This document shows positions 3,001-18,961 of a stretch of DNA of 20,152 nucleotides, in pieces. Every line of letters begins with the position of its first letter. The stretch's first letter is position 1. The DNA comes from a virus. The translations under genes and the position numbers were made by a program. The notes beneath the pieces are model-generated. The model was not told the origin of the DNA. It saw only the letters and a program-made list of their open reading frames with translations, and searched no databases. The stretch is taken from positions 1 through 20,152 of IMG/VR virus record IMGVR_UViG_3300017765_000100. The stretch is one strand, 5' to 3'.

Positions 3001-5480
3001 CCAAGCAATATACCGTTTATACTGGCCTCCGAAGCAGAATTATATCGGTCAGCTGAGGGTAAAGCGTTGGCAAAGGTAAGTCTTGTTGGGCCAGCCACTG
3101 AGAAGGATGTATTCTCGGTTGGAGTCGCTCTTCTCACTGTGTGTCCGACCCCCACGATCTTCGTATGCTGCTGTCCGGGGGCTATCAGGTAGTCGAGGTC
3201 ATCTCTGGGTGTGACTGAGTTGTATGTCGCCTTCACATCGGGGAGCCTGAATCCCTTTATTTCGTCCAATGGAATACCGTCAGAGGCGAAAGAACCTGTA
3301 GAGTCATCGTATCCAGTCTCTCCCTTGGTATCTAGCGTATCTAACTCGAACACGGTGTTTGTAGAAGTGTCCTTGCTTGACCCGAAGAGAGTGTGCTTGT
3401 GCTCAGTCTCAGCTTCAAACAACAGAGAATAGGCAGAACCGTGCGATCTGTGCAGCTGTCGTCTCATGGCTGCTGGAGTGCCTCTATGCATCAATGGGGT
3501 GACGTATGAGTGTCCCTGTCTACCGAACCTAATTCTGTGATGAGGATAGGCATTACCGCTGGGATTGCCGTTGTTGGCTTGTGTGAGCACGGAACCCCTC
3601 TCTGCGTGGTCGGTTATCCTGTGTGCCGAGAAAAGCCGTGTAGAGCCGCTTGGGACGGCTCCGGGGGTAGTGTGGGGGGTGAGGCCGTGTTTGCCGCTTA
3701 GATCGCCGTGTAGCACCCTCTGAACGTGGAAAATCAACATCCTGTCGTGTGTATCGAACTGGGATGCTGCTCCAGATGCCTCAGACACGCCCGGTTTTCG
3801 AGGGTCGGGAGGTGCCAAGCCACCCAGCCCCCACGTCATGTTAGACCAAGCTTGGACACGGTCGTGCCCTGTCCTCACGAAAACGCCTCCGGGTATCTCC
3901 TCCGGGTCTGGCAGCTGAATCTCCATGTTTGGTATCAGTCTTCCATCTGTGGTGGATGGCCCAGTGACTTCTTCTCCGGTGATTGGGTCTTCTCTGGTGT
4001 TCTGAAGCTTGTAGTCTCGAATGACCACGCCCCAAGGCGAGCCACCGAATAGGGTCAGTATGTTTCCTTGGTCGTCTTTTGTCTCTAAATCATCGAAGAC
4101 CATATTCTCATTGCTAATCTGTAGACCCCTAACTTTCGTCTCGGTATTGAGAGTCTTCGCAGAGAATATGGGACGAGGTGCGTATTTGGTGTTGTCATAT
4201 TTCAGACCTTGAGTCACAAAGTCGCCCACATATGAGATAGATGTGAGCTCATCGTTAGAATGCTTGACTATATTCGTTGATGTTCCTGCCGTAGCTTGGT
4301 ATCCATGTGAAGTATGAAACTTATCTCCAGATGTCGTGGATAGCTTGGTCCCATATTCCAAATCTGCCATTTTGACATTGGATGAACCCGTAGTGGAGAA
4401 GTCAGATTTGGTCACGCCACGCAACGAAGGAGATGTCACTGTGAAATCTGGAGGGGGAATGTCTGGTAGATCGCAGGAGTTGAGTCCCTCTATGCTGAAT
4501 CTGACGTATCCGTGCCCAGTAGAGTGAGCTACAGCTGTCGATCCCTTTGAGTCGAAACCGGGAGCTGGAAGACCCATGTTGCCTCCGTCTAATGGTTTAG
4601 CCGCTAACAACCACGTAGGAACGCTCTGCCCCAATCCTTGTATTATCGGCCCTGCGTTAGCCTCGGCCCAGTATCCTCCTTCACTATTGGGCGTTCTTTG
4701 TTCCCATGTCAAAACGACAGTGTGCTTAGGTGGTTCCCCTGCTAATGTGAAAGTTGTATTGACGAGCTGTGCATTGGGAACCGCTGGACTTCCGTCTATC
4801 TGAGTTAACGTATTTGTCAGATTTTCAGTTATAGTGAAATCAGATACACTGTCAGATGTGCTGACGAATTGTGATATTCTTGGTGGCCCCAACCTAACGG
4901 GGACAATGCCGGTGTAATTCAAAGTCGTAGTTTGAGAATTGACGCTATCAGTGAGAGTGACGGTTCCTGTAGTCGGTAAGTCTGAAGGGAATCCATTCCT
5001 GTATCCTCCATCGAATTGAAGACGTAGAGTGCTGTTATCGACTGCGAGAATCGCATTGCCGGAATACGTTGGTCTACCAGACATCCTGACATACCGGGCT
5101 CTGAGGTATCTCGTTCCGCCTGACGCTACTTGCTTGACTTTCCTGCTGTTTATCTTAGCAGCTATGTATCGTGTAGCCTCCTCTGTCCCCAGATTGTAGT
5201 CTCCCGGTCCAGCGGCGTCTACAGCCTGTAGATCGACCACTATGACGTTATTTGCTTCAGCTGGTGCTGAGCTGGTCGCAAGGTTTGTTCTGATCAAAAC
5301 CGTCAGCCCCTGCTTCCAATCGTTGCTGTTAGCTGCATACTGCCATGTCGTTATGTCATCGTCATAGTCAGTGTCTGGATATGTTATGTGCATGGCGAAG
5401 TATCCACTTGCAGGATAACCGCTGGCACCTGCTAAGGGTTGGACCTTAGCTGGATAGATTTGCTTAGAGTATCTTGTCAT
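1..5480 (-). CDS. Giant putative tail-tip/adhesin protein, 3' end beyond window
   Basis: An open frame of 1826 codons runs from ATG at 5480 to the left edge without a stop, so the C-terminus is missing. The start overlaps the stop of the 2189-aa gene by one base (TGATG), which implies translational coupling; this and the uninterrupted frame decide the start. I do not recognise a catalytic domain. Visible features: an N-terminal beginning MTRYSKQIYPAKVQPLAG; a mixed beta-rich body; a histidine-rich stretch at about residues 575-700 (about 15 His); and, from about residue 1450, glycine/serine/threonine-rich sequence with GSGFA and GSGYTSAP-type repeats. Such repeats are common in long surface-exposed proteins of marine viruses. 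Position after the tape measure and the distal-tail-like gene suggests a tail-tip, fibre or receptor-binding component. Role is inferred; that the reading frame is a real gene is nearly certain. Confidence 0.88.
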   Translation of the reverse strand, partial: MTRYSKQIYPAKVQPLAGASGYPASGYFAMHITYPDTDYDDDITTWQYAANSNDWKQGLTVLIRTNLATSSAPAEANNVIVVDLQAVDAAGPGDYNLGTEEATRYIAAKINSRKVKQVASGGTRYLRARYVRMSGRPTYSGNAILAVDNSTLRLQFDGGYRNGFPSDLPTTGTVTLTDSVNSQTTTLNYTGIVPVRLGPPRISQFVSTSDSVSDFTITENLTNTLTQIDGSPAVPNAQLVNTTFTLAGEPPKHTVVLTWEQRTPNSEGGYWAEANAGPIIQGLGQSVPTWLLAAKPLDGGNMGLPAPGFDSKGSTAVAHSTGHGYVRFSIEGLNSCDLPDIPPPDFTVTSPSLRGVTKSDFSTTGSSNVKMADLEYGTKLSTTSGDKFHTSHGYQATAGTSTNIVKHSNDELTSISYVGDFVTQGLKYDNTKYAPRPIFSAKTLNTETKVRGLQISNENMVFDDLETKDDQGNILTLFGGSPWGVVIRDYKLQNTREDPITGEEVTGPSTTDGRLIPNMEIQLPDPEEIPGGVFVRTGHDRVQAWSNMTWGLGGLAPPDPRKPGVSEASGAASQFDTHDRMLIFHVQRVLHGDLSGKHGLTPHTTPGAVPSGSTRLFSAHRITDHAERGSVLTQANNGNPSGNAYPHHRIRFGRQGHSYVTPLMHRGTPAAMRRQLHRSHGSAYSLLFEAETEHKHTLFGSSKDTSTNTVFELDTLDTKGETGYDDSTGSFASDGIPLDEIKGFRLPDVKATYNSVTPRDDLDYLIAPGQQHTKIVGVGHTVRRATPTENTSFSVAGPTRLTFANALPSADRYNSASEASINGILLGDYLLGGGTPMPSLIYEGSSSYFVSGREEGVSVSRISTEIATTPPLLCHDPEYLNLGARTAGGAGITAANADLGLMTASHTGTGAKPDAFLCNWLAEYNHPAFFGTVREHFLTFRYREAGMPRSLNYPPVRGLYLRNHSNPTTTAQSENSGAIEKMYVGQWLQSYGYNGLNAGGHGNTDGLRSANAVLMGHTTVREAQGTLRLLKQYENIRYSRGEGIGDGVNPERTGATIFYDSDTDSVSFTKYVTVLDSMVAYDMSRRMPIRAYGIRTASDSLDMLAGDPNEGTNTQGVYGKGRFDGGIHDSMQKIPNATDHGASWFFDKDYSGVERSIPIGVVMSSHTAESSPYSSTVRRSNLPINSSESPIGIGSTLGLESGGMTLPTSMPAGLWENEFIEAPLNARPHNKGSDPFIDLYQYTGSDAYSQSQSIAAVERTNTFGVSGTFYHLRGNTLHTNASALDHSAMRALAASNGEKKTHYPSTGWGEATYNSSNNATKTVKAIPLSEVADHRQVQSRTEPRLGLIIDTENERLNNKTMEYQVMGTKAFSLNSDLGVGQHYPITPSWVSKTKLEKHGFTIDGGAGSTVTHSNEYVAPTWSPDSDDAKGLGGSAISSITLSSGANSGTGYSAGTLSASGGGGSGFAGTYAISAAVSNSVSKSGGGEEFSSSQTSGSISVNNSGTNGSGFAANFVTTNDGASVNSVSISGGGAKYGIASQALTVGHGSSGSGFAATGFLGHPMSATLSSFNGSNTVRISGGPGTGDFTTPSWRMVVSGTKGATANHFPSSTTANSAIFAWTIDSGGRLTGVTTTTAGSDFQSNHTITYTLQWDPLGGTSYAVYGDTGTLADGNWNFGTSAALAQLDLSANSGKLTQIQVTNYGSGYTGARPSLDLLNSNMVLPNQIAGASAATISRTLNTATRSLGTITVTNQGSGYTSAPALSITSPATFTGTLTASLLSTGPVFSVTMTNGGSGYTSDPTIVFSNAGSGATVSVSLPESQSEPR
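84..387 (-). repeat. GSGYT-type protein repeats in the giant protein
   Basis: Three copies of the motif [V/M]TN-x-GSGYT occur in the giant protein: VTNYGSGYTGARP (around 358-387), VTNQGSGYTSAP (around 208-234) and MTNGGSGYTSDP (84-113). Each is followed by a short hydrophobic beta-strand-like segment. The copies are similar in protein but diverged in DNA, so this is an old protein-level repeat and not a recent duplication. It may continue to the left of the window. Confidence 0.75.
807..1140 (-). repeat. Glycine-rich GSGFA repeats in the giant protein
   Basis: Three short units with the core GSGFA are seen: GGGGSGFAGTY, NGSGFAANF and SGSGFAATGF, separated by serine-rich beta-like spacers. 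They precede the GSGYT repeats in the same protein and probably form a related repetitive beta structure. The repeat is visible only at the protein level. Confidence 0.65.
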
Positions 5481-8400
5481 CACCACACCCCTCTCGATGT
5501 CCAGAGCTCCGAGACTTCGGCATCAGTCAGTGCCTTGTTGAACACAGCTACGTTTGATAGCTGGCAATCCGTTAGATAATATGTTTGAGCTTGAGATAGT
5601 CCGCCATGTCCTCCACCGTTCGTTGAATAGGTAGATGCACCGTGCTTCCCCACATTCATTGGTATCAGGCTCGCATTAGATGTAGGGGCATGGTATGGCC
5701 CCGTGAATGTTCTTCCATGGCTTTTGTTATTAGCCGCAGCGTTGTTATTCAGGGTCTTGAGGGCCGACAGACCGATCAAGACCGTGTTGTTAGCAGCCGG
5801 AGTCCCTAATGCAGACGGCAAGGTTCCAGCTGCGGTTGCAGCAGGCGAATAACCTGCATCGGTTGTAGCTCTCAAAAAATTGTTCAATGAAGTGGCTGAG
5901 CTGCCACCAAGATTTACTGGTGTCTGTGTGATCTTGAACGGCAAATTGCCTCCTGTTTTAGTTATCTCTCCACTGCCATACCCAGATTTTCCGAACTTAA
6001 GATATGATTGGTTTGATAGATATAGCGTGGCATTACTACCAGTCTTGGTGAATACGACATGAGTCCAAGCATCACGGTCCACACGGCAGCCAAGCCTATC
6101 GACATCTTGCATGAACAGTATCTTCGTTCCATCAGCTTCACAGGCAGCTAATGTGAATTGAATATACTGGTCGTTGTTTTCATTGGTATTGTCGCCACCT
6201 GCTAAGAATAAGCCCCATCCTCTGCCTCCTGAATCTATACCGGATATTATCGGCCCAGCTGCTGGTTCTCCTGATGCAGTAGAATTGCTGCATTTGAACC
6301 ACGCACTAATCGAGAAATCCCCTCTACAATCAAACTCCTTCAAAGGCCCGTATTCTGCCTCGACTCCTGAGTTGTAGTTGTAGGTCGCCAGATTCAAGCC
6401 ATATCCAAACAAGGTTCCTTTGTCTGTATCATCAACACTGTATGCTGGCCCATTGACCAAGGTGAAGCTATCAGATGCCCCAGATAACTTAGTGGCTCTA
6501 AGCGGAGAGCCATAGAGGTCTTCTGCCGATCCAGCCGTGTTGCTCTGAGACAATGTGCCTGATGTTATCGTGTCGTTGAGTCTGGCATAGAACCTGCACC
6601 TGTCTATCGCATTGCCCGAAGAGTCCACGTCTAATGCATGGTGGAAACCCTGCAACGTATTCTCATTGATGGTGTCGTTGTTGGTTATATCGGTGAAGTC
6701 GAGCACAGCTGATGCCCCGGATACCTCATGCAGATTCTGAAAGCCACTGAAACCAGTCGGACCCGATGAAAGGGGATGCTTGTAGTCATTGGTGTAATCA
6801 TTCGCAGTCCCATCACTGACATCAATCACCACTCCTGTGTGCCCTCCTCCGAAGAACACTATGCCTTGAGAGTCCATGGGCGGCCACAGCAGCTCTACGT
6901 CTATTCCTCCTATCTCAAGGTCATTGCTTACTGACGGCTGTCCCTGTGAAGTATCGAAAAATTGGTTGTAGAAAGAGTCCATGTCTTCTCTAGGCGTTAT
7001 ATTGTTGATGTAGAATGCATTGGATGCCACAAGAGATGTTATCGGCCCCGGTGTGATGAAATCGAAATCAGCGAGTCTTCCATTCACTCTCATGATTCCC
7101 CTTGTGGTGTTAGACAAGGCAGCTGAGATTCTTTTCATGTAGTCCTCGGTATTCCTGCTGACTGCGAGATATGAAAAACCGGATGACTTCGCAGAGGTTA
7201 AGTTCTCTGGATTCACCATTCTCTGGTTGTTCACACTGTTCGTAGCATTTGTAGACCAAGACGTGACAGTCGGCTGGGCTACGGTCTTTACCGTGTAATT
7301 GCCTCCAAGAGCATCATATGTCCTTACGTTCCCATCAACGTCCAACGTAGACCCGTGTGGAGCTCCCCTGAACGTGCTAATGGGGACGAAGGTCTCTCCG
7401 TCTGCTCCTATAGGTAGGGGGGCAGGGAACGAGTTGGGTTGATACATTCTGCTGTTTGTCGCAGTCACGCCTGCATAGCCTACTATCCTGTTCGGTTTGT
7501 AGGGGTAGGGAGTGTTGTTATTCATGAATACGCAGAATCCCCTTCCAGCTGCACCGGGGACGGTGCTGTGTATGACTATCGACATCCCAGCCTCTCCATC
7601 TCTGCTCTCCACATCGGAACCATGGAACGATCTGACATACCCCATGTGTGTCCCTGTGTCATTATTCGTAGTGGTGAACAGCGGAGGCGGATTGAAGGCA
7701 CTTCCTCCAGCCGCATTCTTTGCTTGAGGGTGTCCAGCCATGTTTATACGGCGAATCACCTCATCAACGCAGAGATTAAAATCTCCCGTTTTTGTTGCTA
7801 TATCGTTGAAATCTAACTCTAATGGCCTCACATAGTCCAATGAGAGACCGTCCGACTTCTTTCCTTTGAGTGCCAAAGCATTGCTCCTGACTTCTATCGG
7901 AGGAACCGTATAACGGTCATTAGCAGCCTCTTGTGTCTCAGTTGTGTCCCAATCAAACGCATTCATGTTTGGGCCGTCCCTGATATAATACCGATACGGA
8001 TTCAAAGCATCTACCTGCACGGCTGTAGATTTCAATCCCAATAGCTTCCTACAGGCAGTAGCTACTTGTGTTCCTAAGATTGGCGCGAGCTTAGCAAACT
8101 CGTATCCAAAGTTAGCGGGAGTCCCGTGTGCACTGTTGTAAGTCGATAGCGTGGTGACAAAACTGACAAGGTGGTCAGAGGTGATGGTGTTGCCTCCTGT
8201 ATCTTCATTAGTGCCCAGAGCCACATATCCGCCCAATATGATTGTTGCACCTGTTGCTATCTTTGTCGATACATCTGCTGCATCCAACGTGACAGGGTGG
8301 TATGCCCTGAACGTAGTGCCACTACCATGAGGTCTTATTCTCAATTGGTTTGCTACACTATGAACGCCGACTTGAACAAGAAAACCATAGCCATCATTGA

Positions 8401-11400
8401 TCTGTGGTATGCCCTCTCCTATCGTGACCCAGAAGCCGCCGTCTAAATTACCACTACCACTCTCATCATCCGATAGAGTCTCATTCAGATATACCGCATC
8501 TCCTCTATCTCCTGTGGCCTTTTGGAATGCAGAGTAATCATCAAGGGTAATTATCCCAGCGTTGTAATTAGTGACTACAGCTTGAACAGATGGCCTCTGA
8601 CATCTTATTAGAAGGTCATTGGTGAAAAACTCAGCACCCATAAGTTGGGATATGAAACCCTCCTTTACTTCAATTGAAGATACTGGCTCGCTCATCCCCC
8701 AATCTATTGCGAACCTACTCTCATACTCTTTCATCTGTGGCCTGTTGGTTGCAGTCATCGTAGCATCGACAGTCATCTTGAATGAGCGAGTGGATGAAAG
8801 AGGCGTCCTCGGATCGTTGTTAGAATCCTCGATAGAGTCTACGTCGAAGAACATCGAGGGAAAGAGAGGTATCTCTGTGATGGCTCTGGTAGAGGCATAG
8901 TATGTGGATGCCTGCTTGTCGTTTCTGACGGAAGCGTTGCCTGAACCCACTATCCTGTCCTTCCATCCGGGGAACAGTGGGTGTTCGGTGTATGTTGGTT
9001 GTATGTCTACTCCTCCCTGACCCAGACCGCCGAGCGTCATAGATACAGAGGGAGTGCCCAAGTCTCCTATCTCTTTCACCGGAGACCCTCTGCCGAGATT
9101 AAAATCACGTATTGCACGACTGTCTGATATATCCATCAATATAGAACGACCCCTCAATGTGAGCTCAGATTTACCGTTTGTGTCCACGGAAGGAGCAATC
9201 TCTTCGATCCTGCCTCTCATCAGATTGAGCTCAATCGTAGCAGTGCTCGACTCATCGCCCCTGTCTGTAGTGATTATGTCGTCAAGAGCTGCGGTTCTCG
9301 ACCTGTTAGCTGGATGGATGAGGACTGTGCTGTCATCGGCTTGTAGGTCATTGTCAATAATATGAAAGCCCATCAGGTTTGAACGTGTGAATGCAGCTGG
9401 GGTCTGTGATGCTGTCGTGTAGTCTCTCTGGTCGCTTTGTGTGATATTCTCTATGAATAGAGAGTGGAAGTCGGAGTTGCTGCTGTCATCGGGGGTGTTG
9501 GTGCTGGGAACGGGCTTGGGGCGTCCGTAGCCCTGTATGCCTGTCCCGACTGTCACCACGCAGTCTTCGATGTTGATGAATGGCGATGGAGTGATGTCTC
9601 CAGTGGGTGCAGCTGAGAGTATGTTGCTTGACATGGGCCCGTTGAACGATGATGTGGGCAAGCTGAGGATACCACCGGAGGATGTCATTTTCAACAAGAT
9701 GTCTTTGTGGTTTGAGGGTGCAGAGGAATACGGCTTCCTAAGCCAATCAGAGACGCTCCTGCTACCATATAGGGCACTACCACACGGGACAGTCTTCTTC
9801 ACCACCAGATAGCCCTTATTGCCTATAGCGTGGAAAGGGCTGAACTTCGTGTTGATTCCGCTTCTTATGTTGAATCCAGTCCCAGCTACGACCTCTCCTG
9901 TGAGGTCTATCGCATCGTAGTAGACGTGTATCTTTCTCGGACCACCTGCACTGATCAACGCAGCTGGTGAGTCTATCGTAGCGATACGAGGCTCTTTCTC
10001 TGGAGTTAGATGCCTGACATACGCATCGTTGGTGGGAACGCCACCAGACATTGCAGCTGTATGGTCATCATCCAAACCCTTGAGTAAGAATGGCTTGATG
10101 TTCTCCACAGCTATGGCCACTATTTCATCTCTGGTCGATGCAGACATATTGTTAGTAGCATAGAACCCCACGCCTGATTCTGTCACAATCCGGTTGAAGG
10201 GGTTGCCACTGCCATCTGTTGCCAATACTGTCGATGATGTGTTTATCACACGGTCTATCGTCCCAGAATATACTGTCTCTGTCACTTTGACTATGTCGTT
10301 TTGAGAAAGTATGCTGTTTAATGAAGGATCGTCTGTTACATACTCAAAGCTGTTGGCGATGCCCTGTATCGTTTGCCTGACTCTCTGTTCGTCTGGTTGA
10401 GGTAGACGCTTGAGAAAGAACTCTCCTTCGTATATCGAGTATGATGTGACTCCACCCATAGCTGGATATTCTTCTGATGGGGTGGCTAACACACTTGATG
10501 CTCCTGTGCTGAGAGACCGACTCTTTGGAGATATGAAGAAAGCATCGTTGGCGAAGTCCGTCCCATCCTTGAACTTCTGATTGTGAGTGAACAGATACTT
10601 GGTGAATGTGTCCTTTGCTCTTGTCTTCTGACCTGATACGCCAGCATCGACATTAGGGTTGCCCGGATCAATAAGCACGTCTGATTTTCCCAATACGAAC
10701 CAGACAGGGACATCGTCCGTTCTTGATTGGTAGAATATGGAGGACTGTTCTTCTGGTAGATTGTCCACTCCATTGTTAGCTTCATCATTGGCAAGATGTA
10801 TCGACGTGCACGTCAGCTTTGAATTGACAAGATCGAGGCTTGTGACTCTGAGCCTTTCAGGTTTGACTGACATGGGGTTGAGGTCTACTGCCGCAGCCGT
10901 GGCTTGCACGTTCTCATCGGAATACCTTACCATCTGACTCGAAGGGGTTGCGGATATTCCAGTCATGGGATGTGTTCCTGAATGATTTATGATTACATTC
11001 AGAGATGTAGCTGGGACACCTGAGAAATAGTCAGCTCCTGTCAAATCTAAGGTTCCTGTAGCGAACCAAGATTGATTCTTCACATCCTTCAATTGAGTCC
11101 CTGTAAGGTATGCAGCCAGCTTCTCCAATGCGGTATAACGGTCTACGCTGCCATTTGGATTAGCTGGGTAGTCTCTGAGCTTGAAGCTATTTACGTTGTT
11201 GCTGACTGCAAAGGTGTGCCCCATAGCGACCATTGGGATGGGCATAAGACCGTCATGAGTGTCGGGGCCATCACGACCCTGATAGGTCACAGCAGAACGT
11301 GCGTTGTTAAAAAAATAGATATCAGGGACATCAATCTCATCATCGAATCTCCATAGTCCTAATGTTGAGTCTGATTTAGTCAGCGGTTCGATCTTCGGCT

Positions 11401-12049
11401 CTATAACTCCCATGCTTAGTCTCACGGATTCGATCAAACCACGGTATTCTCCTCCTTGTCCGCCTATGAACAAGTCAGAAGATGACTGAGAGACCAGTGG
11501 GTCTTCACCTCCAAAATTCAATTCCCCTACTAAATCTCCATTGACGAAGCATCGAATAAAGCTCCTGTTGAATTGAGCGTTTAGAAACACGAGTGGTTGT
11601 TCTGATATGGTCAAATTCTGTGGCTTGTGCTCTCCACCAGAGTATGAGCCTGAGTGATTTGATGTTACTAGAGGTGCGTTGTATGATGTCTCTATTCTAT
11701 ATGTCCTGTTATCAGTGGTGACATCGAACACCAATGGCCCAGCTGAGAATGGATTACCGTAGCTAAGTTTGAATTGACCGGGTTTTTCGAGAATGACTCC
11801 GCCATAATCGGGTATGATACAAGCGTCTATTGTGAAAGCACCACGTATAGAATTGAGAGGATTTGATATCTGCTCTTCGTGCCTCCTTCCTATTTTGCTG
11901 GCATCGCTCTTTGGTGCTTTGGCCGTAGCTGAAAACTCAGGATGCCTCAAGTCCCTACCCGATTCCTTGAATTTTCCCGTTGGGACGACTAACCCATCTG
12001 TCAGGCCGTTAAGCCGGACGGCTTTGCCGTGATATCGAATAATCCCCAT
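5480..12049 (-). CDS. 2189-aa LamG-bracketed tail/baseplate protein
   Basis: Very large structural protein, probably part of the tail tip or baseplate. Residues about 1-240 look like a concanavalin A/LamG-type beta-sandwich: VRLNGLTDGLVVP near the start, AFTIDACIIPD at 71-81, a FVNGDLVGE strand pair near 168-176 and LIESVRLSMG near 205. A clearer LamG domain ends the protein from about residue 1900: FSISAWFKC, then DAWTHVVFTKTGSNATLYLSN, and finally LSNVAVFNKALTDAEVSELW, the classic last helix. A middle segment near residues 950-990 (GRIEEI, then ELTLRGRSILMDISDS) faintly resembles the beta-barrel of baseplate hub proteins of the Mu gp44/late-control D type; this is weak. ATG at 12049 lies 3 bases after the stop of the 428-aa gene, with GGGGAT upstream. 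LamG domains often bind glycans, so host-surface binding is inferred. Being real coding sequence is certain; the exact role is not. Confidence 0.9.
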   Translation of the reverse strand: MGIIRYHGKAVRLNGLTDGLVVPTGKFKESGRDLRHPEFSATAKAPKSDASKIGRRHEEQISNPLNSIRGAFTIDACIIPDYGGVILEKPGQFKLSYGNPFSAGPLVFDVTTDNRTYRIETSYNAPLVTSNHSGSYSGGEHKPQNLTISEQPLVFLNAQFNRSFIRCFVNGDLVGELNFGGEDPLVSQSSSDLFIGGQGGEYRGLIESVRLSMGVIEPKIEPLTKSDSTLGLWRFDDEIDVPDIYFFNNARSAVTYQGRDGPDTHDGLMPIPMVAMGHTFAVSNNVNSFKLRDYPANPNGSVDRYTALEKLAAYLTGTQLKDVKNQSWFATGTLDLTGADYFSGVPATSLNVIINHSGTHPMTGISATPSSQMVRYSDENVQATAAAVDLNPMSVKPERLRVTSLDLVNSKLTCTSIHLANDEANNGVDNLPEEQSSIFYQSRTDDVPVWFVLGKSDVLIDPGNPNVDAGVSGQKTRAKDTFTKYLFTHNQKFKDGTDFANDAFFISPKSRSLSTGASSVLATPSEEYPAMGGVTSYSIYEGEFFLKRLPQPDEQRVRQTIQGIANSFEYVTDDPSLNSILSQNDIVKVTETVYSGTIDRVINTSSTVLATDGSGNPFNRIVTESGVGFYATNNMSASTRDEIVAIAVENIKPFLLKGLDDDHTAAMSGGVPTNDAYVRHLTPEKEPRIATIDSPAALISAGGPRKIHVYYDAIDLTGEVVAGTGFNIRSGINTKFSPFHAIGNKGYLVVKKTVPCGSALYGSRSVSDWLRKPYSSAPSNHKDILLKMTSSGGILSLPTSSFNGPMSSNILSAAPTGDITPSPFINIEDCVVTVGTGIQGYGRPKPVPSTNTPDDSSNSDFHSLFIENITQSDQRDYTTASQTPAAFTRSNLMGFHIIDNDLQADDSTVLIHPANRSRTAALDDIITTDRGDESSTATIELNLMRGRIEEIAPSVDTNGKSELTLRGRSILMDISDSRAIRDFNLGRGSPVKEIGDLGTPSVSMTLGGLGQGGVDIQPTYTEHPLFPGWKDRIVGSGNASVRNDKQASTYYASTRAITEIPLFPSMFFDVDSIEDSNNDPRTPLSSTRSFKMTVDATMTATNRPQMKEYESRFAIDWGMSEPVSSIEVKEGFISQLMGAEFFTNDLLIRCQRPSVQAVVTNYNAGIITLDDYSAFQKATGDRGDAVYLNETLSDDESGSGNLDGGFWVTIGEGIPQINDGYGFLVQVGVHSVANQLRIRPHGSGTTFRAYHPVTLDAADVSTKIATGATIILGGYVALGTNEDTGGNTITSDHLVSFVTTLSTYNSAHGTPANFGYEFAKLAPILGTQVATACRKLLGLKSTAVQVDALNPYRYYIRDGPNMNAFDWDTTETQEAANDRYTVPPIEVRSNALALKGKKSDGLSLDYVRPLELDFNDIATKTGDFNLCVDEVIRRINMAGHPQAKNAAGGSAFNPPPLFTTTNNDTGTHMGYVRSFHGSDVESRDGEAGMSIVIHSTVPGAAGRGFCVFMNNNTPYPYKPNRIVGYAGVTATNSRMYQPNSFPAPLPIGADGETFVPISTFRGAPHGSTLDVDGNVRTYDALGGNYTVKTVAQPTVTSWSTNATNSVNNQRMVNPENLTSAKSSGFSYLAVSRNTEDYMKRISAALSNTTRGIMRVNGRLADFDFITPGPITSLVASNAFYINNITPREDMDSFYNQFFDTSQGQPSVSNDLEIGGIDVELLWPPMDSQGIVFFGGGHTGVVIDVSDGTANDYTNDYKHPLSSGPTGFSGFQNLHEVSGASAVLDFTDITNNDTINENTLQGFHHALDVDSSGNAIDRCRFYARLNDTITSGTLSQSNTAGSAEDLYGSPLRATKLSGASDSFTLVNGPAYSVDDTDKGTLFGYGLNLATYNYNSGVEAEYGPLKEFDCRGDFSISAWFKCSNSTASGEPAAGPIISGIDSGGRGWGLFLAGGDNTNENNDQYIQFTLAACEADGTKILFMQDVDRLGCRVDRDAWTHVVFTKTGSNATLYLSNQSYLKFGKSGYGSGEITKTGGNLPFKITQTPVNLGGSSATSLNNFLRATTDAGYSPAATAAGTLPSALGTPAANNTVLIGLSALKTLNNNAAANNKSHGRTFTGPYHAPTSNASLIPMNVGKHGASTYSTNGGGHGGLSQAQTYYLTDCQLSNVAVFNKALTDAEVSELWTSRGVW

Positions 12050-12052
12050 GTA

Positions 12053-13339
12053 TCATATCCCCACAAGCTGCTCTACTACTGATAGAGTGAGGTCATAGCC
12101 CCAGTAGCCATCACCTGCATTGTAAGAGGGGTTCCATGTATTCAAGACACAAGGTATAGCCACTCCCTGCTCAAGATATGGGTTAGGTCTGATTATCTGA
12201 TTATTCACAGTAATAGTAGGATCGTAGTTTTGAGTGTTCTTCTCGGGAGCGTAATCTGTTCCGGGCCCAGCTGGAACGATATATTGTCTCAACACTCTCT
12301 GCCCCACGGGAGAGCTCGCTATCGACTCATAGGGTATTCTGACACCTATGATATACTTCTTCACTGTAGCTGCGTCTTCTATATTCAAGAATCGTGACGC
12401 ATCAAAAGAAGATACACTACTGGGCAAATCTAAGACAGCACCAGTCATTACGTTCGGAGAAATTAAAGCCCCACCAGCCGATGCGTTCGTCAGATTCAGA
12501 ATCTCTTGAACCTTATCTCCCATCGTCATCTTGGTAGAATCCAGACCTCCTGTAAAATTAGTAACAAGAAATTGTTTGTCCCATCGTCCTTGAGAGCCAT
12601 CTATTAGAGCGAAGGTGTTGCTTCCAGCATTAACTCCCTTTGTGACTGTGACACCTAAATTACCAGATTTCCCTATGGTTTTGTTTTTGATCTGTATTCT
12701 TTCTCCAGCATACACAGAATTGACATCCCCTGTCTGATGATAGTATGAATTATTCTTCTGCTGCCCTTGACTGGTAGACACCGAGAAGGCAGATGAAAAG
12801 GGCGTGGTAGCTCCATTCACTGTTATATTCGCAGATGCCAGAGCTGATGCAATCGTGGATGAAAGCGTCTGTGTAGTAGTGGTGCTGCTAATATTGACGC
12901 CTATGATGCTGTCAGCCACACTGGATGTGGTGGTTCCGTTAGCCAGTCTTATGGACGTGGTCTCTCCCAAACCAGCTGTCTTCTGACCCACTGACTTGAA
13001 TGAGATGTCCACGCCATCCAAATCCGCCTTGACCGTGTTCCAAGCACCAGCCGAGGTTGAGTATTGCCCATACCATGTGGAGCTGGGTATTTGTCCCGAT
13101 GATTGAGACAAGTCGATAGTGAAAGCCGAACCTGTCCCTAGAGCCTCGCCCTCATCGTCACTGAGAATCCCGTTGATACTAATGCTGACATCGGTCTGAT
13201 TGAGGTCAATTGCGTATCTCGTAGCTATGAAAGGCAGAGGGAATGATTGCACCCCTCTTGTTATTGCGAATGTAATGTTCTCAGCATCTAACTCGATCAC
13301 CGAGCTGTCTCTTCGTAGTAGTTGTATCTTAGGCATCAC
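12053..13339 (-). CDS. Putative distal tail/baseplate protein, 428 aa
   Basis: I do not recognise the family with certainty. The N-terminus (KIQLLRRDSSVIELDAENIT, then RGVQSFPLPF and a DVSISINGIL strand) looks like a beta-rich tail component. The middle is Ser/Thr-rich with GKSGNLGVTVTKG. The C-terminal region has a proline-containing stretch and ends in a strand-like YDLTLSVVEQLVGI. Its place directly after the tape measure is where distal tail or baseplate initiator proteins sit in siphovirus and myovirus modules. The start is GTG at 13339, immediately followed by ATG at 13336; both overlap the tape-measure stop (GTGATG contains its TGA). An AGGGGG stretch lies 7 bases before the GTG, so either start works. 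No signal peptide or membrane segment is visible. Confidence 0.85.
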   Translation of the reverse strand: MMPKIQLLRRDSSVIELDAENITFAITRGVQSFPLPFIATRYAIDLNQTDVSISINGILSDDEGEALGTGSAFTIDLSQSSGQIPSSTWYGQYSTSAGAWNTVKADLDGVDISFKSVGQKTAGLGETTSIRLANGTTTSSVADSIIGVNISSTTTTQTLSSTIASALASANITVNGATTPFSSAFSVSTSQGQQKNNSYYHQTGDVNSVYAGERIQIKNKTIGKSGNLGVTVTKGVNAGSNTFALIDGSQGRWDKQFLVTNFTGGLDSTKMTMGDKVQEILNLTNASAGGALISPNVMTGAVLDLPSSVSSFDASRFLNIEDAATVKKYIIGVRIPYESIASSPVGQRVLRQYIVPAGPGTDYAPEKNTQNYDPTITVNNQIIRPNPYLEQGVAIPCVLNTWNPSYNAGDGYWGYDLTLSVVEQLVGI

Positions 13340-14976
13340 AGAGTCCCCCTACCAAAGCCACTGCCTCTCGAACGGTTCCTGAAGACACGCTGAACCTCTT
13401 GGCTTACGGCTCTTGCTACTTCTCGTGCATTACCTCCGCCACTGACGCTGATATTGACAGTGACGTTCTCGCCACCACCTCCGCCCATTCCCTTCAGTGT
13501 GACAGGTATGGACGAACCGTCTGGCAACGGGACTACGGCTTCTGTCCCGTGTAAAGTGGCTGGATACCCGCTTGCTGGCCCAGTAGCTATACCTCCAGCG
13601 TGGAATGGGTTGATGCCGCCCAAGAAATCTCCAGCCCCTCCAATGACGCCTCCAATTGCATCTCCTACACCGCCGACCACATCTCCTATGAATCCAAATA
13701 TTTTCTCCAATGGAGGTTGGACTATGTTTATGAAGCCCATAATCACCGATTCTATGCCCTCAAATATAGTAGTGACAAGTGCTTTCAAATCATCAAAGCC
13801 TAATCCTAATGGAGCCAAAATCGCATCTATGATGTTTATCATAATAGCTTTCAAGCTCTTTCCGAAGTCTACGAATATGTCCTTCGCTTCTCCGAGGAAA
13901 CCTTTGAAAATGCCGGGTATCTCACCAAAGTTTCCTGTGAATACAGCTGTGAGAAGCTCCAGTATTGTCGATATTCCGGCGAAGAACAACCTAAAGGAAA
14001 CGACAGCAGTTGCGATAGCACCAGAAAGAAGATTGACTATGATACTAATGATGCTTCCAAAGGCAGTAAATAACGGCCCCGATAAGAAACCAATCAAAGA
14101 GGCGAATAGGACGAGAATCTCCCCTACAACGAATACCACTGGCGGCAGTATGAGTCCAATAATTTCAATCAATTCAGCGAAGAAAACAAGCAGCCCGCTG
14201 TTGATCAAGAAATCTACGAAGCCATTGAATACGCCGCTGATAAACCCGAATATGCTTCCCCAGTTTATACCAAGTGCATCTAAGATTTGGAAGATGTAGC
14301 CAAATGCCATCGTGAAAGCAACTATTATCCCAGATATGCCGTTGATGATAGCTTGGAATGCCCCTGAGCTTTCCATGTATGTGAATAGTGTCACAAGACT
14401 ATCCATTATATCGGCTATGAATCCGTAGAATGCAACGGCGAAGCTGACTACGAACGTGATCAAACCGCCAAACAACATGGCACCCGCTTCAAGCAGAGGG
14501 CCAAAGTCCAGTGATAGAATGACTGCTCCGATCTGCTGAAGGCTATCCACTACACTCATGACTGAATTGTAAATATCGCCCAAGCCCTCATAGAATGCGG
14601 GGAATGCTTCTGTAGCTCCTGCGAAAGAACCTGTGAATGTTATCAGCACAGCTGTCACAGTGATGAACATACCCACCAAGAATAGCAGGCCCATTGCGAT
14701 AGCACGGAATGACTTGACCATGAGGTCTAATGGCCCAACGAGTGCCGTAGCAGCTTCCTCTGCACTCTCCATAGCCTCTGTATTTGGTGCGAGGACTTCT
14801 GTCAGAAGCTGGACGTTAGACTTCAGCTCATACATCAGATCGACAATAGGGCCCAAAAGACCCCTCATAACCTGATATTTGACTATTGATTTTTGTGTGG
14901 CTTTGCCGTATGCATCGGTTCCAACAGCGAGCAGTCTGATGGTTTTTAGAGAATCAGCTAAACCCTTGAGAACCAT
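13336..14976 (-). CDS. Tail tape-measure protein
   Basis: Sets tail length and is threaded through the tail tube; during infection such proteins often help form a channel through the host membrane. At 546 aa it is short for the family. Residues 1-85 are helical and amphipathic. Residues about 92-348 are an almost continuous series of hydrophobic segments (for example AIAMGLLFLVGMFITVTAVL at 92-111 and GGLITFVVSFAVAFYGFIAD near 170-189), followed by amphipathic helices to about 430 and a glycine-rich linker. The C-terminus has the typical tape-measure ending: FHAGGIATGP at 458-467, LHGTEAVVPLP at 475-485, then a VTVNISVSGGG strand and a basic tail. ATG at 14976 overlaps the end of the G-T frame by 23 bases, with GAGGG just upstream. 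The position after the chaperone frameshift pair agrees fully. Confidence 0.92.
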   Translation of the reverse strand: MVLKGLADSLKTIRLLAVGTDAYGKATQKSIVKYQVMRGLLGPIVDLMYELKSNVQLLTEVLAPNTEAMESAEEAATALVGPLDLMVKSFRAIAMGLLFLVGMFITVTAVLITFTGSFAGATEAFPAFYEGLGDIYNSVMSVVDSLQQIGAVILSLDFGPLLEAGAMLFGGLITFVVSFAVAFYGFIADIMDSLVTLFTYMESSGAFQAIINGISGIIVAFTMAFGYIFQILDALGINWGSIFGFISGVFNGFVDFLINSGLLVFFAELIEIIGLILPPVVFVVGEILVLFASLIGFLSGPLFTAFGSIISIIVNLLSGAIATAVVSFRLFFAGISTILELLTAVFTGNFGEIPGIFKGFLGEAKDIFVDFGKSLKAIMINIIDAILAPLGLGFDDLKALVTTIFEGIESVIMGFINIVQPPLEKIFGFIGDVVGGVGDAIGGVIGGAGDFLGGINPFHAGGIATGPASGYPATLHGTEAVVPLPDGSSIPVTLKGMGGGGGENVTVNISVSGGGNAREVARAVSQEVQRVFRNRSRGSGFGRGTL

Positions 14977-15678
14977 CGTTTTCCCTCATCTCAGCGTTGA
15001 TACGGTCAAAGTAGTCCTCCAGCTCCCCCGCATCGCTGGTAGTCCGTATAACACGGCCACCTTTATTGTTGCCTTTGTTATACTGACGCTTCATCTCTTT
15101 CTGCTTCCTTTCCATCTCAGCTGATTGTTTTTGCTGCACGGCCTGCACGAACATATAATCCAGCATAACACGGTCAAATGGTTGGTCATCCCAAGAGTGC
15201 GGTGGGCAATTGAAGTGAGTGCCCAACACGAACCTCATGGTCTGATACGAGAGTATCATCGCCTGTTCTTTGCTGAAGGGATTTACTTCTCCGTCACTGT
15301 CTATGTATCGCTTCAGATCGGAGAAGTTTATCCCAAAGGGTTTGCCGAATCCTCCGCCAGACTTGTCATCAAGTCAGTGAGGGTTGGGAGCACCTTAGCA
15401 AGCTTACTACCAACATCAGGCTTTAGATTCAATAAGTCAGTGTATGATAGCTTAGGCTCGGTCTTTGTGATGCACTCCTTCAAGACGTATTTCCAGTATC
15501 CGCCGAAGTCAAGAGAGGGAGATATGTCCTCTCCTTCAAAGTTAAATTCAACGAATTTAGTCAATGCCTCTTGTTGTTGTATCCAAGATAGTGGTTTTAC
15601 CCAGACTCCGAGGGTTCCCTCGTCAGTCTCGATTTCATAATGATCGGGTGTGTTGCTGATTGTAAAGGGATTACTCAC
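14954..15678 (-). CDS. Tail assembly chaperone G-T, made by -1 frameshift
   Basis: Predicted fusion of about 241 aa. Translation starts at the same GTG (15678) as protein G, reads about 112-115 codons, slips back one base within AAACCCTTTGGGA (15343-15331), and continues in the -1 frame to the stop at 14954-14956. After the slip the frame is open with no stop through GINFSDLKRYIDSDGEVNPF and joins an ORF whose first internal ATG is at 15259. That 101-aa ORF has no ribosome-binding site of its own that I can see, so it is read as the T part and not as a separate gene. The T part has a glutamine/lysine-rich amphipathic stretch (QQKQSAEMERKQKEMKRQ) like lambda gpGT-type chaperones. G and G-T bind the tape measure and recruit tail tube subunits. 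The frameshift is predicted from sequence, not measured. Confidence 0.82.
15273..15343 (-). promoter_or_regulatory. Programmed -1 ribosomal frameshift signal
   Basis: In the G frame the codons read GCA AAC CCT TTG GGA TAA. The bases AAACCCTTTGGGA (15343-15331) give three overlapping X-XXY-YYZ heptamers: AAACCCT, CCCTTTG and TTTGGGA. Downstream, ACTTCTCCG (15327-15319) is the exact reverse complement of CGGAGAAGT (15293-15285), a 9-bp stem with a 25-base loop starting 3, 6 or 9 bases after the three heptamers. In the loop, CTGAAG (15316-15311) can also pair with CTTCAG (15278-15273), so a pseudoknot is possible. Stem and spacing fit known -1 stimulators. Confidence 0.85.
15328..15678 (-). CDS. 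Tail assembly chaperone G (unshifted product)
   Basis: This 116-aa protein is the zero-frame product of the chaperone locus. It begins with GTG at 15678, placed 9 bases after a clean GGAGG (15692-15688), and the start overlaps the previous gene's stop by 8 bases. Sequence features fit gpG-like chaperones: an N-terminal beta portion (HYEIETDEGTLGVWVKPLSW), then acidic and helical sequence with PTLTDLMTSLAEDSA. It ends TTG GGA TAA right at the slippery sequence, which is typical for these genes. Assignment rests on size, position between tube and tape measure, and the frameshift; the primary sequence alone would not be enough. Confidence 0.85.
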   Translation of the reverse strand: MSNPFTISNTPDHYEIETDEGTLGVWVKPLSWIQQQEALTKFVEFNFEGEDISPSLDFGGYWKYVLKECITKTEPKLSYTDLLNLKPDVGSKLAKVLPTLTDLMTSLAEDSANPLG

Positions 15679-16054
15679 TTGTCTCAGCCTCCGACTCGTC
15701 TACTGCTGCTTCTTCAGAATCCCCCGAATCCTCCACAGCTACTACTTCTTCCAAACCATCAGGGTTGGCTGCATCCCACGCCCTGAGTCTGTTAATTAAA
15801 TCTGATTTGTTTCCATATACTGGTTCGCTTCTCTGTGAGAGCATTGTTCTCAGCTCTACAACAGATTGGTCTTCGTATCCGTCAGTATATACGACTTCTT
15901 CGACTGCCTCTGCTGGTGTAGCTGGTAGAGCTCCACTCACGGATAACCCGCTAATATCCAAAGAACCTCCATGAGATTCCACTCCTTCTGGAGTTATCGT
16001 CCAATCAATTAGATAGGATTTGAACCCATCACTCGCTATTCCGGTTATCTTCAT
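15671..16054 (-). CDS. Small tail-module protein with SAP-like domain
   Basis: A 127-aa protein between the tube gene and the chaperones. Residues about 62-96 match the helix-extended-loop-helix pattern of a SAP (or related HeH/LEM-type) motif: SVVELRTMLSQRSEPVYGNK followed by SDLINRLRAWDA, with the conserved G-N-K-S/D-L-I-x-R-L core. The N-terminus (about 1-40) looks beta-stranded and the last 28 residues are strongly acidic. SAP motifs usually bind DNA, but in virion modules small domains of this shape also serve protein contacts. It could be a tail-tube accessory or a minor tail protein; function is unknown. ATG at 16054 is preceded by AAGGAGATGA (16068-16059), a strong ribosome-binding site. 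Its stop overlaps the GTG start of G by 8 bases. Confidence 0.87.
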   Translation of the reverse strand: MKITGIASDGFKSYLIDWTITPEGVESHGGSLDISGLSVSGALPATPAEAVEEVVYTDGYEDQSVVELRTMLSQRSEPVYGNKSDLINRLRAWDAANPDGLEEVVAVEDSGDSEEAAVDESEAETSE

Positions 16055-18673: not shown

Positions 18674-18961
18674 CTATGGGAACATGATTCCACGAGGATG
18701 TGACTCGAACCACTGTGGCTGTGATGGTTGATGCTTTGCGTATGAATTAGGGGGCACATCGCCGTATATCTCTTGTAATGTCTCTGGCCAGTCGAGCAAT
18801 GCCTGCCTGTAGTCTGCGAGCTCTTGTTGTTGTTCTGCGGTTAGACTGTTCCAAAGCATAGGTTTCGATTGATAGTAGTCTACATATGTCGTTAACATAT
18901 AGTCTCTTGACGATCTCACACAACCCATTGCATATTCCATAGTCACTTCTTCTATTGCCAT
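18674..18961 (-). CDS. Tail fibre assembly chaperone-like protein
   Basis: A 95-aa protein. Residues 16-60 resemble the Phage_tail_APC family of tail assembly chaperones: RSSRDYMLTTYVDYYQ, then LTAEQQQELADYRQALLDWP. The family pattern is R-x-x-R-D-x-L-L, a short aromatic linker, and a (W/D)-x-x-Y-R-Q-A-L-x-D helix ahead of a WP/IP. Proteins of this kind usually help fold or attach the neighbouring fibre, and here the gene directly follows a fibre gene. ATG at 18961 has a near-perfect ribosome-binding site overlapping the fibre stop. Assignment is by motif recognition and context. Confidence 0.78.
   Translation of the reverse strand: MAIEEVTMEYAMGCVRSSRDYMLTTYVDYYQSKPMLWNSLTAEQQQELADYRQALLDWPETLQEIYGDVPPNSYAKHQPSQPQWFESHPRGIMFP

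Follow-up and report, generated by a model that had tools for sequence, protein, structure and literature searches.

A 20,152-base virus contig from IMG/VR (IMGVR_UViG_3300017765_000100), a fragment that we call the window, carries two overlapping open reading frames (ORFs), G and T, immediately upstream of a tape measure gene, with the second in the -1 frame relative to the first. We propose, with a confidence of roughly 95%, that a programmed -1 ribosomal frameshift at the end of G yields two tail assembly chaperones, G and a G-T fusion (GT), from one mRNA. An earlier reading of the sequence alone had placed a -1 frameshift site with a stem between these two chaperone genes, and had suggested checking in related genomes for heptamer conservation, compensatory changes in the stem and a start codon of T's own. 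In our comparison the heptamer is invariant, the arms of the stem compensate one another, and T has no shared start. The G/GT frameshift has long been known in phages; the case described here is a new and unusually well supported member of that class, not a new mechanism.

One conserved heptamer at the end of G

Protein-based searches of viral contigs returned about 60 related contigs. These gave a comparison set of 49 distinct junctions, the window included, from many separate contigs, in which the relatives' T proteins are 38-86% identical to that of the window. The wide searches used the protein motifs HFxCPPH, GRPLRTTSD, WIQQQEA and DLGGYW, which lie inside G or T and away from the junction and its heptamer. 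Thus, the way in which the relatives were found does not account for the conserved junction.

In the window, G ends in AAACCCTTTGGGATAA, which its own frame reads as GCA AAC CCT TTG GGA TAA. As the sequence-only reading had described, the -1 frame reads AAA CCC TTT GGG, a run of three overlapping heptamers that ends one base before the stop: A_AAC_CCT, C_CCT_TTG and T_TTG_GGA all formally fit X_XXY_YYZ in the G frame, and an A at 15331 separates GGG (15334-15332) from TAA (15330-15328). That reading went further and took the overlapping sites for a special multi-site cassette that could make frameshifting robust or tuned. The relatives do not bear this out. Whereas CCCTTTGG is identical in all 49 junctions, AAA precedes it in only 4, the fourth triplet is GGG in 17 (GGA in 23, GGC in 6 and GGT in 3), and the complete run AAACCCTTTGGG occurs in just two, the window and the relative L123. 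Moreover, CCN and GGN are on average poorer A-site shifters in E. coli (PMC4066793). Comparison of the junctions indicates that C_CCU_UUG is the sole conserved heptamer of the three, with AAA and GGG coming and going between relatives, and that the quadruple run is mostly incidental. Since the three formal slips in the window would lead to one fusion protein, differing by L or F at a single position (...NP[L/F]GINF...), the overlap makes no different product. That the window has all three heptamers and L123 shares the full run is in keeping with a multi-site cassette, which we nonetheless regard as unlikely.

The sequence constraint at the heptamer extends beyond the encoded protein. The codons CCT and TTG are frozen in 27 of 27 representatives, as is CCC TTT in the -1 reading, whereas all other invariant residues of G and T use several, or nearly all, of their synonymous codons; this difference reflects selection on the nucleotides themselves. 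The codon before CCT is always NNC in the 43 junctions tabulated, and is one of eight codon types encoding S, A, D, N, G, R or T. The position of the G stop is equally fixed, ending at +13 from the first C of CCC in 49 of 49 junctions, although the codon itself may be TAA (43), TGA (4) or TAG (2). From a single metagenomic contig, a frame break of this kind could conceivably be put down to a sequencing or assembly error or to a decayed gene. That explanation is refuted, since all 49 junctions, drawn from many separate contigs, break at the identical base and conserve both frames as protein.

Some 10-15 nucleotides (nt) before the heptamer, the window has a Shine-Dalgarno (SD)-like GGAGG (15350-15365, minus strand), and many relatives have GGCGGTGA. 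Considered as a candidate upstream stimulator, this element pairs strongly with the anti-SD, but the Gly-Gly-Glu codons account for most of that pairing, and its z score against synonymous sequences is only -0.37.

A covarying stem downstream of the heptamer

The sequence-only reading had also reported a perfect 9-bp stem 3-9 bases downstream. Such a stem is present in the window, where it encloses a loop of 25 nt and starts 9 nt after the first heptamer, 6 nt after the middle one (CCCTTTG) and 3 nt after the last. Measured from the conserved heptamer, its spacing thus falls within the 5-9 nt range looked for in a stimulatory structure. Across the relatives the 5' arm lies at +13, while the distance to its partner varies. 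The clades differ in their arms, and each arm pairs with its own partner: ACCTTCCC with GGGAAGGT, CCTACCCT with AGGGTAGG, CTTACCCT with AGGGTAAG and, with G-U pairing, CCCACTCGGA with TTCGGGTGGG. One clade has a compact form with a loop of 8-9 nt, exemplified by GCCATGATGA/TCATC-a-ATGGC, whose loop is 8 nt.

These compensating arms were evaluated by an arm-swap test, in which the pairing of own arms was compared with that of arms exchanged between relatives in 33 representatives. Own arms paired at -10.7 kcal/mol and swapped arms at -6.6 kcal/mol (z = -9.0); among 68 control offsets, none went beyond -2.9. Randomising the codons while keeping the proteins abolished the pairing effect (own -5.6; z of the difference = -13). 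By this comparative evidence, the stem is real and strongly covarying. Single-sequence energies are modest (mean z -1.3 over 43 sequences), and the claim of a stem therefore rests on the comparative result.

A further proposal was that six loop bases could pair downstream, so that the stimulator would be an H-type pseudoknot made of the 9-bp stem and a 6-bp loop-to-downstream pairing. The two segments, CTGAAG and CTTCAG, are indeed perfectly complementary in the window, and in the wider clade the swap test gives a weak signal in their favour (z -2.1, p 0.017). However, among the six closest junctions z is +0.2, the pairing is poor in three relatives (L019, L023 and L024), and one clade makes do with the compact hairpin. 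We therefore consider the pseudoknot unlikely and its second pairing probably incidental. Separately, inside the G coding sequence of clade I relatives, about 48 nt before CCCTTTG, there is another own-versus-swapped signal of pairing, weaker than that of the stem (z -3.5 in that clade, -2.5 overall).

Translation of T in the -1 frame

In the window the -1 frame is open from the CCC at 15340 to 14954, and the T frame has a stop upstream. The predicted GT junction reads ...SANPL-GINFSDLKRYI.... No start codon of T is conserved among the 49 junctions: three relatives have no ATG, GTG or TTG before codon 37, and 41 of the 49 have no ATG before codon 26. The early codons are nevertheless under protein-level selection. 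Over codons 5-27, the stretch ahead of most possible starts, the T frame has a ratio of nonsynonymous to synonymous polymorphism (pN/pS) of 0.18. The values for the other two frames, which carry stops over this stretch in 38 of the 49 junctions, are 1.34 and 2.20.

These observations bear on the possibility that ribosomes start on T independently, through initiation or termination-reinitiation near the G stop, with the heptamer surviving as a relic. The window does offer a T-frame ATG at codon 28 (15259), and for the chaperones of T4-like phages a route other than frameshifting has been proposed (Vladimirov et al. 2022, as cited in PMC10885494). Yet the absence of a shared start, combined with purifying selection ahead of most candidate starts, means that independent initiation does not explain T, and both the heptamer and the stem are under selection. 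We regard independent translation as very improbable. With T lacking a start of its own and read in the -1 frame, its annotation is hereby corrected; standard gene callers would truncate it or pick a false start codon.

Proposed mechanism and points against it

The slippage itself, its exact position and its efficiency are inferred, as are the roles of G and GT. A ribosome would decode CCU in the P site and UUG in the A site of C_CCU_UUG while paused by the stem 6 nt downstream. The CCU and UUG tRNAs would then slip in tandem onto CCC and UUU, and a fraction of ribosomes would continue in the -1 frame to make GT. Unslipped ribosomes would terminate one codon later and release G, of 116 amino acids (aa), as the abundant product, with GT the minor one. 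By analogy with lambda, G would coat the tape measure protein and the T part would recruit tail-tube subunits, the ratio of G to GT setting tail assembly.

Several observations weigh against a frameshift at this site. In E. coli, A-rich motifs shift best, UUG is a heterogeneous and weaker A-site codon, and C_CCU_UUG falls outside the group of most efficient motifs (PMC4066793), although only a low efficiency is needed. Taken as a single sequence, the stem of the window reaches only p = 0.07 against synonymous controls, and L055 and L058 are among the few sequences with weak stems only. Finally, T has no PHROG match, no Pfam match above the cut-off and no significant fold match outside its own group.

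The invariance of so modest a motif may reflect a low required level of GT or different archaeal rules of decoding. Tentatively, C_CCU_UUG could be a distinct, frozen archaeal shift site, at which either the A-site leucine tRNA re-pairs off-cognate on UUU or the proline tRNA slips alone. Heptamer, fixed stop and stem would then act together as a single geometric unit specific to ribosomes of the Poseidoniales type, obeying a rule unlike the A-rich bacterial one.

Identity of G

By profile and predicted fold, G is a tail assembly chaperone. The family phrog_25860, annotated as tail assembly chaperone, is matched by 10 of 13 G homologues (best E 2.5e-5) and weakly by the window's own G (E 7e-4). 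The AlphaFold model of G has a predicted local distance difference test score (pLDDT) of 85. Its best named match is the tail assembly chaperone of the Haloarcula virus HHTV-2 (E 1.1e-5, template modelling (TM) score 0.67), and it matches Mu FS-gp41 more weakly; a fold search in the PDB gave no match. In searches of 50,697 phage records, T found no relative at E up to 0.01, and one G homologue used as query found none at E up to 1. A 428-aa protein searched against phage records found no named relative at E up to 0.001. G had no match in cellular genome contigs.

Likely host and relation to known frameshifts

The host is probably a marine archaeon of the Poseidoniales type, as judged from the relatives of the window. 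Among 24 related contigs, 12 encode a Cpn60/TCP1-family chaperonin, and the contig of L019, the closest relative, is one of these. The single chaperonin studied more closely, on the contig of L024 (L075:16384-18018), is a group II chaperonin, or thermosome, whose nearest cellular relatives come from metagenome-assembled genomes of the Marine Group II (MGII)/Poseidoniales type at 45-46% identity; the same contig carries a Hef/Xpf-type nuclease. Since the thermosome is closest to Marine Group II, the ribosome that decodes these junctions is probably archaeal. Neither the chaperonin nor the nuclease gene was seen in the window, itself a fragment. A family B DNA polymerase, a trait of Magrovirales, is present in one of 12 related contigs, which may be fragments, as the 20-kb window is.

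It is useful to contrast this site with three known systems. First, the -1 frameshift that makes lambda gpG and gpGT has counterparts that are conserved among tailed phages (Xu, Hendrix and Duda 2004; reviewed in PMC5009743). The present genes share with it the two overlapping ORFs, the second in the -1 frame, just ahead of the tape measure gene, an X_XXY_YYZ heptamer near the end of G and the expectation of a minor GT product. They differ in having no T relative detectable in the phage records, in a heptamer outside the A-rich motifs efficient in E. coli, in a heptamer/stop geometry frozen across a divergent group, in the covarying stem and in the probable archaeal host. Second, tail-chaperone frameshifts have been predicted in the haloarchaeal viruses HVTV-1 and HCTV-1, -2 and -5 (Pietila 2013 and Sencilo 2013, as cited in PMC5009743 and PMC8211752). 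These too involve an archaeal host, a tail chaperone and a -1 shift predicted from sequence, and the fold of G matches that of the HHTV-2 chaperone, but their heptamers are others, whereas in the present group all 49 junctions have C_CCU_UUG, followed by a covarying stem. Third, the alpha-fucosidase gene fucA1 of Sulfolobus is the one demonstrated case of programmed -1 frameshifting in archaea (review PMC8211752). It likewise combines a heptamer with a putative stem-loop under archaeal decoding, which is only probable in our case. Unlike the viral structural gene studied here, for which the proof is broad and comparative, fucA1 is cellular, its heptamer is A-rich and its frameshift has been proved by experiment.

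Programmed -1 frameshifting in archaea has thus been known from one demonstrated cellular gene and from predictions in a few haloarchaeal viruses (PMC8211752). Our literature search found no report of CCCUUUG/CCCTTTG as a tail-chaperone shift site, which does not prove that none exists, and a search for Poseidoniales together with ribosomal frameshifting found nothing. The present set adds broad comparative evidence for -1 frameshifting in a little-known group of marine viruses, in which the heptamer is invariant and not A-rich, the stop is fixed and the stem arms compensate one another. Its two clearly different stem forms can be compared side by side, and the junctions provide ready cassettes for studying archaeal frameshift rules.

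Gene neighbourhood

The genes identified as tail genes in the window all lie on the minus strand, and the tape measure gene follows T directly, its start overlapped by T (Table 1).

Table 1. Coordinates of the G/T junction and its surroundings in the window.
Feature	Position	Strand	Description
G, predicted tail assembly chaperone	15328..15678	-	ORF, 116 aa, GTG start, C-terminus ...SANPLG*
T region, -1 frame	14954..15340	-	128 codons + stop; predicted C-terminal part of the GT fusion
Tape measure protein	13336..14976	-	546 aa; phrog_58 tail length tape measure protein, E 1.7e-15
AAA, first triplet of run	15341..15343	-	not conserved
Slippery heptamer C_CCU_UUG (putative)	15334..15340	-	CCC 15340-15338, TTT 15337-15335, G 15334; identical 49/49
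GGG, fourth triplet of run	15332..15334	-	third base varies
G stop codon TAA	15328..15330	-	one codon past heptamer; position invariant 49/49
Stem 5' arm ACTTCTCCG	15319..15327	-	starts 6 nt past heptamer; arm-swap covariation
Stem 3' arm CGGAGAAGT	15285..15293	-	perfect 9 bp with 5' arm; compensated in relatives
Candidate pseudoknot pairing	15273..15316	-	CTGAAG 15316-15311 / CTTCAG 15278-15273, 6 bp; probably incidental

Directly upstream of G, and overlapping it, lies a gene for a SAP-domain protein of 127 aa (15671-16054, minus strand; Pfam E 1.7e-6), which is unusual to find in a tail module. A 95-aa protein (18674-18961, minus strand) has a match to Pfam Phage_tail_APC slightly below the cut-off and also matches families annotated as tail fibre and tail fibre assembly (phrog_8716, E 1.3e-6). 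Two giant proteins are encoded one after the other on the minus strand downstream of the tape measure gene: one of 2189 aa with a LamG-like lectin domain (5480-12049), and one of at least 1828 aa that runs off the contig (3-5486). The contig of L024 has giant pairs of similar size in the corresponding place (L077).
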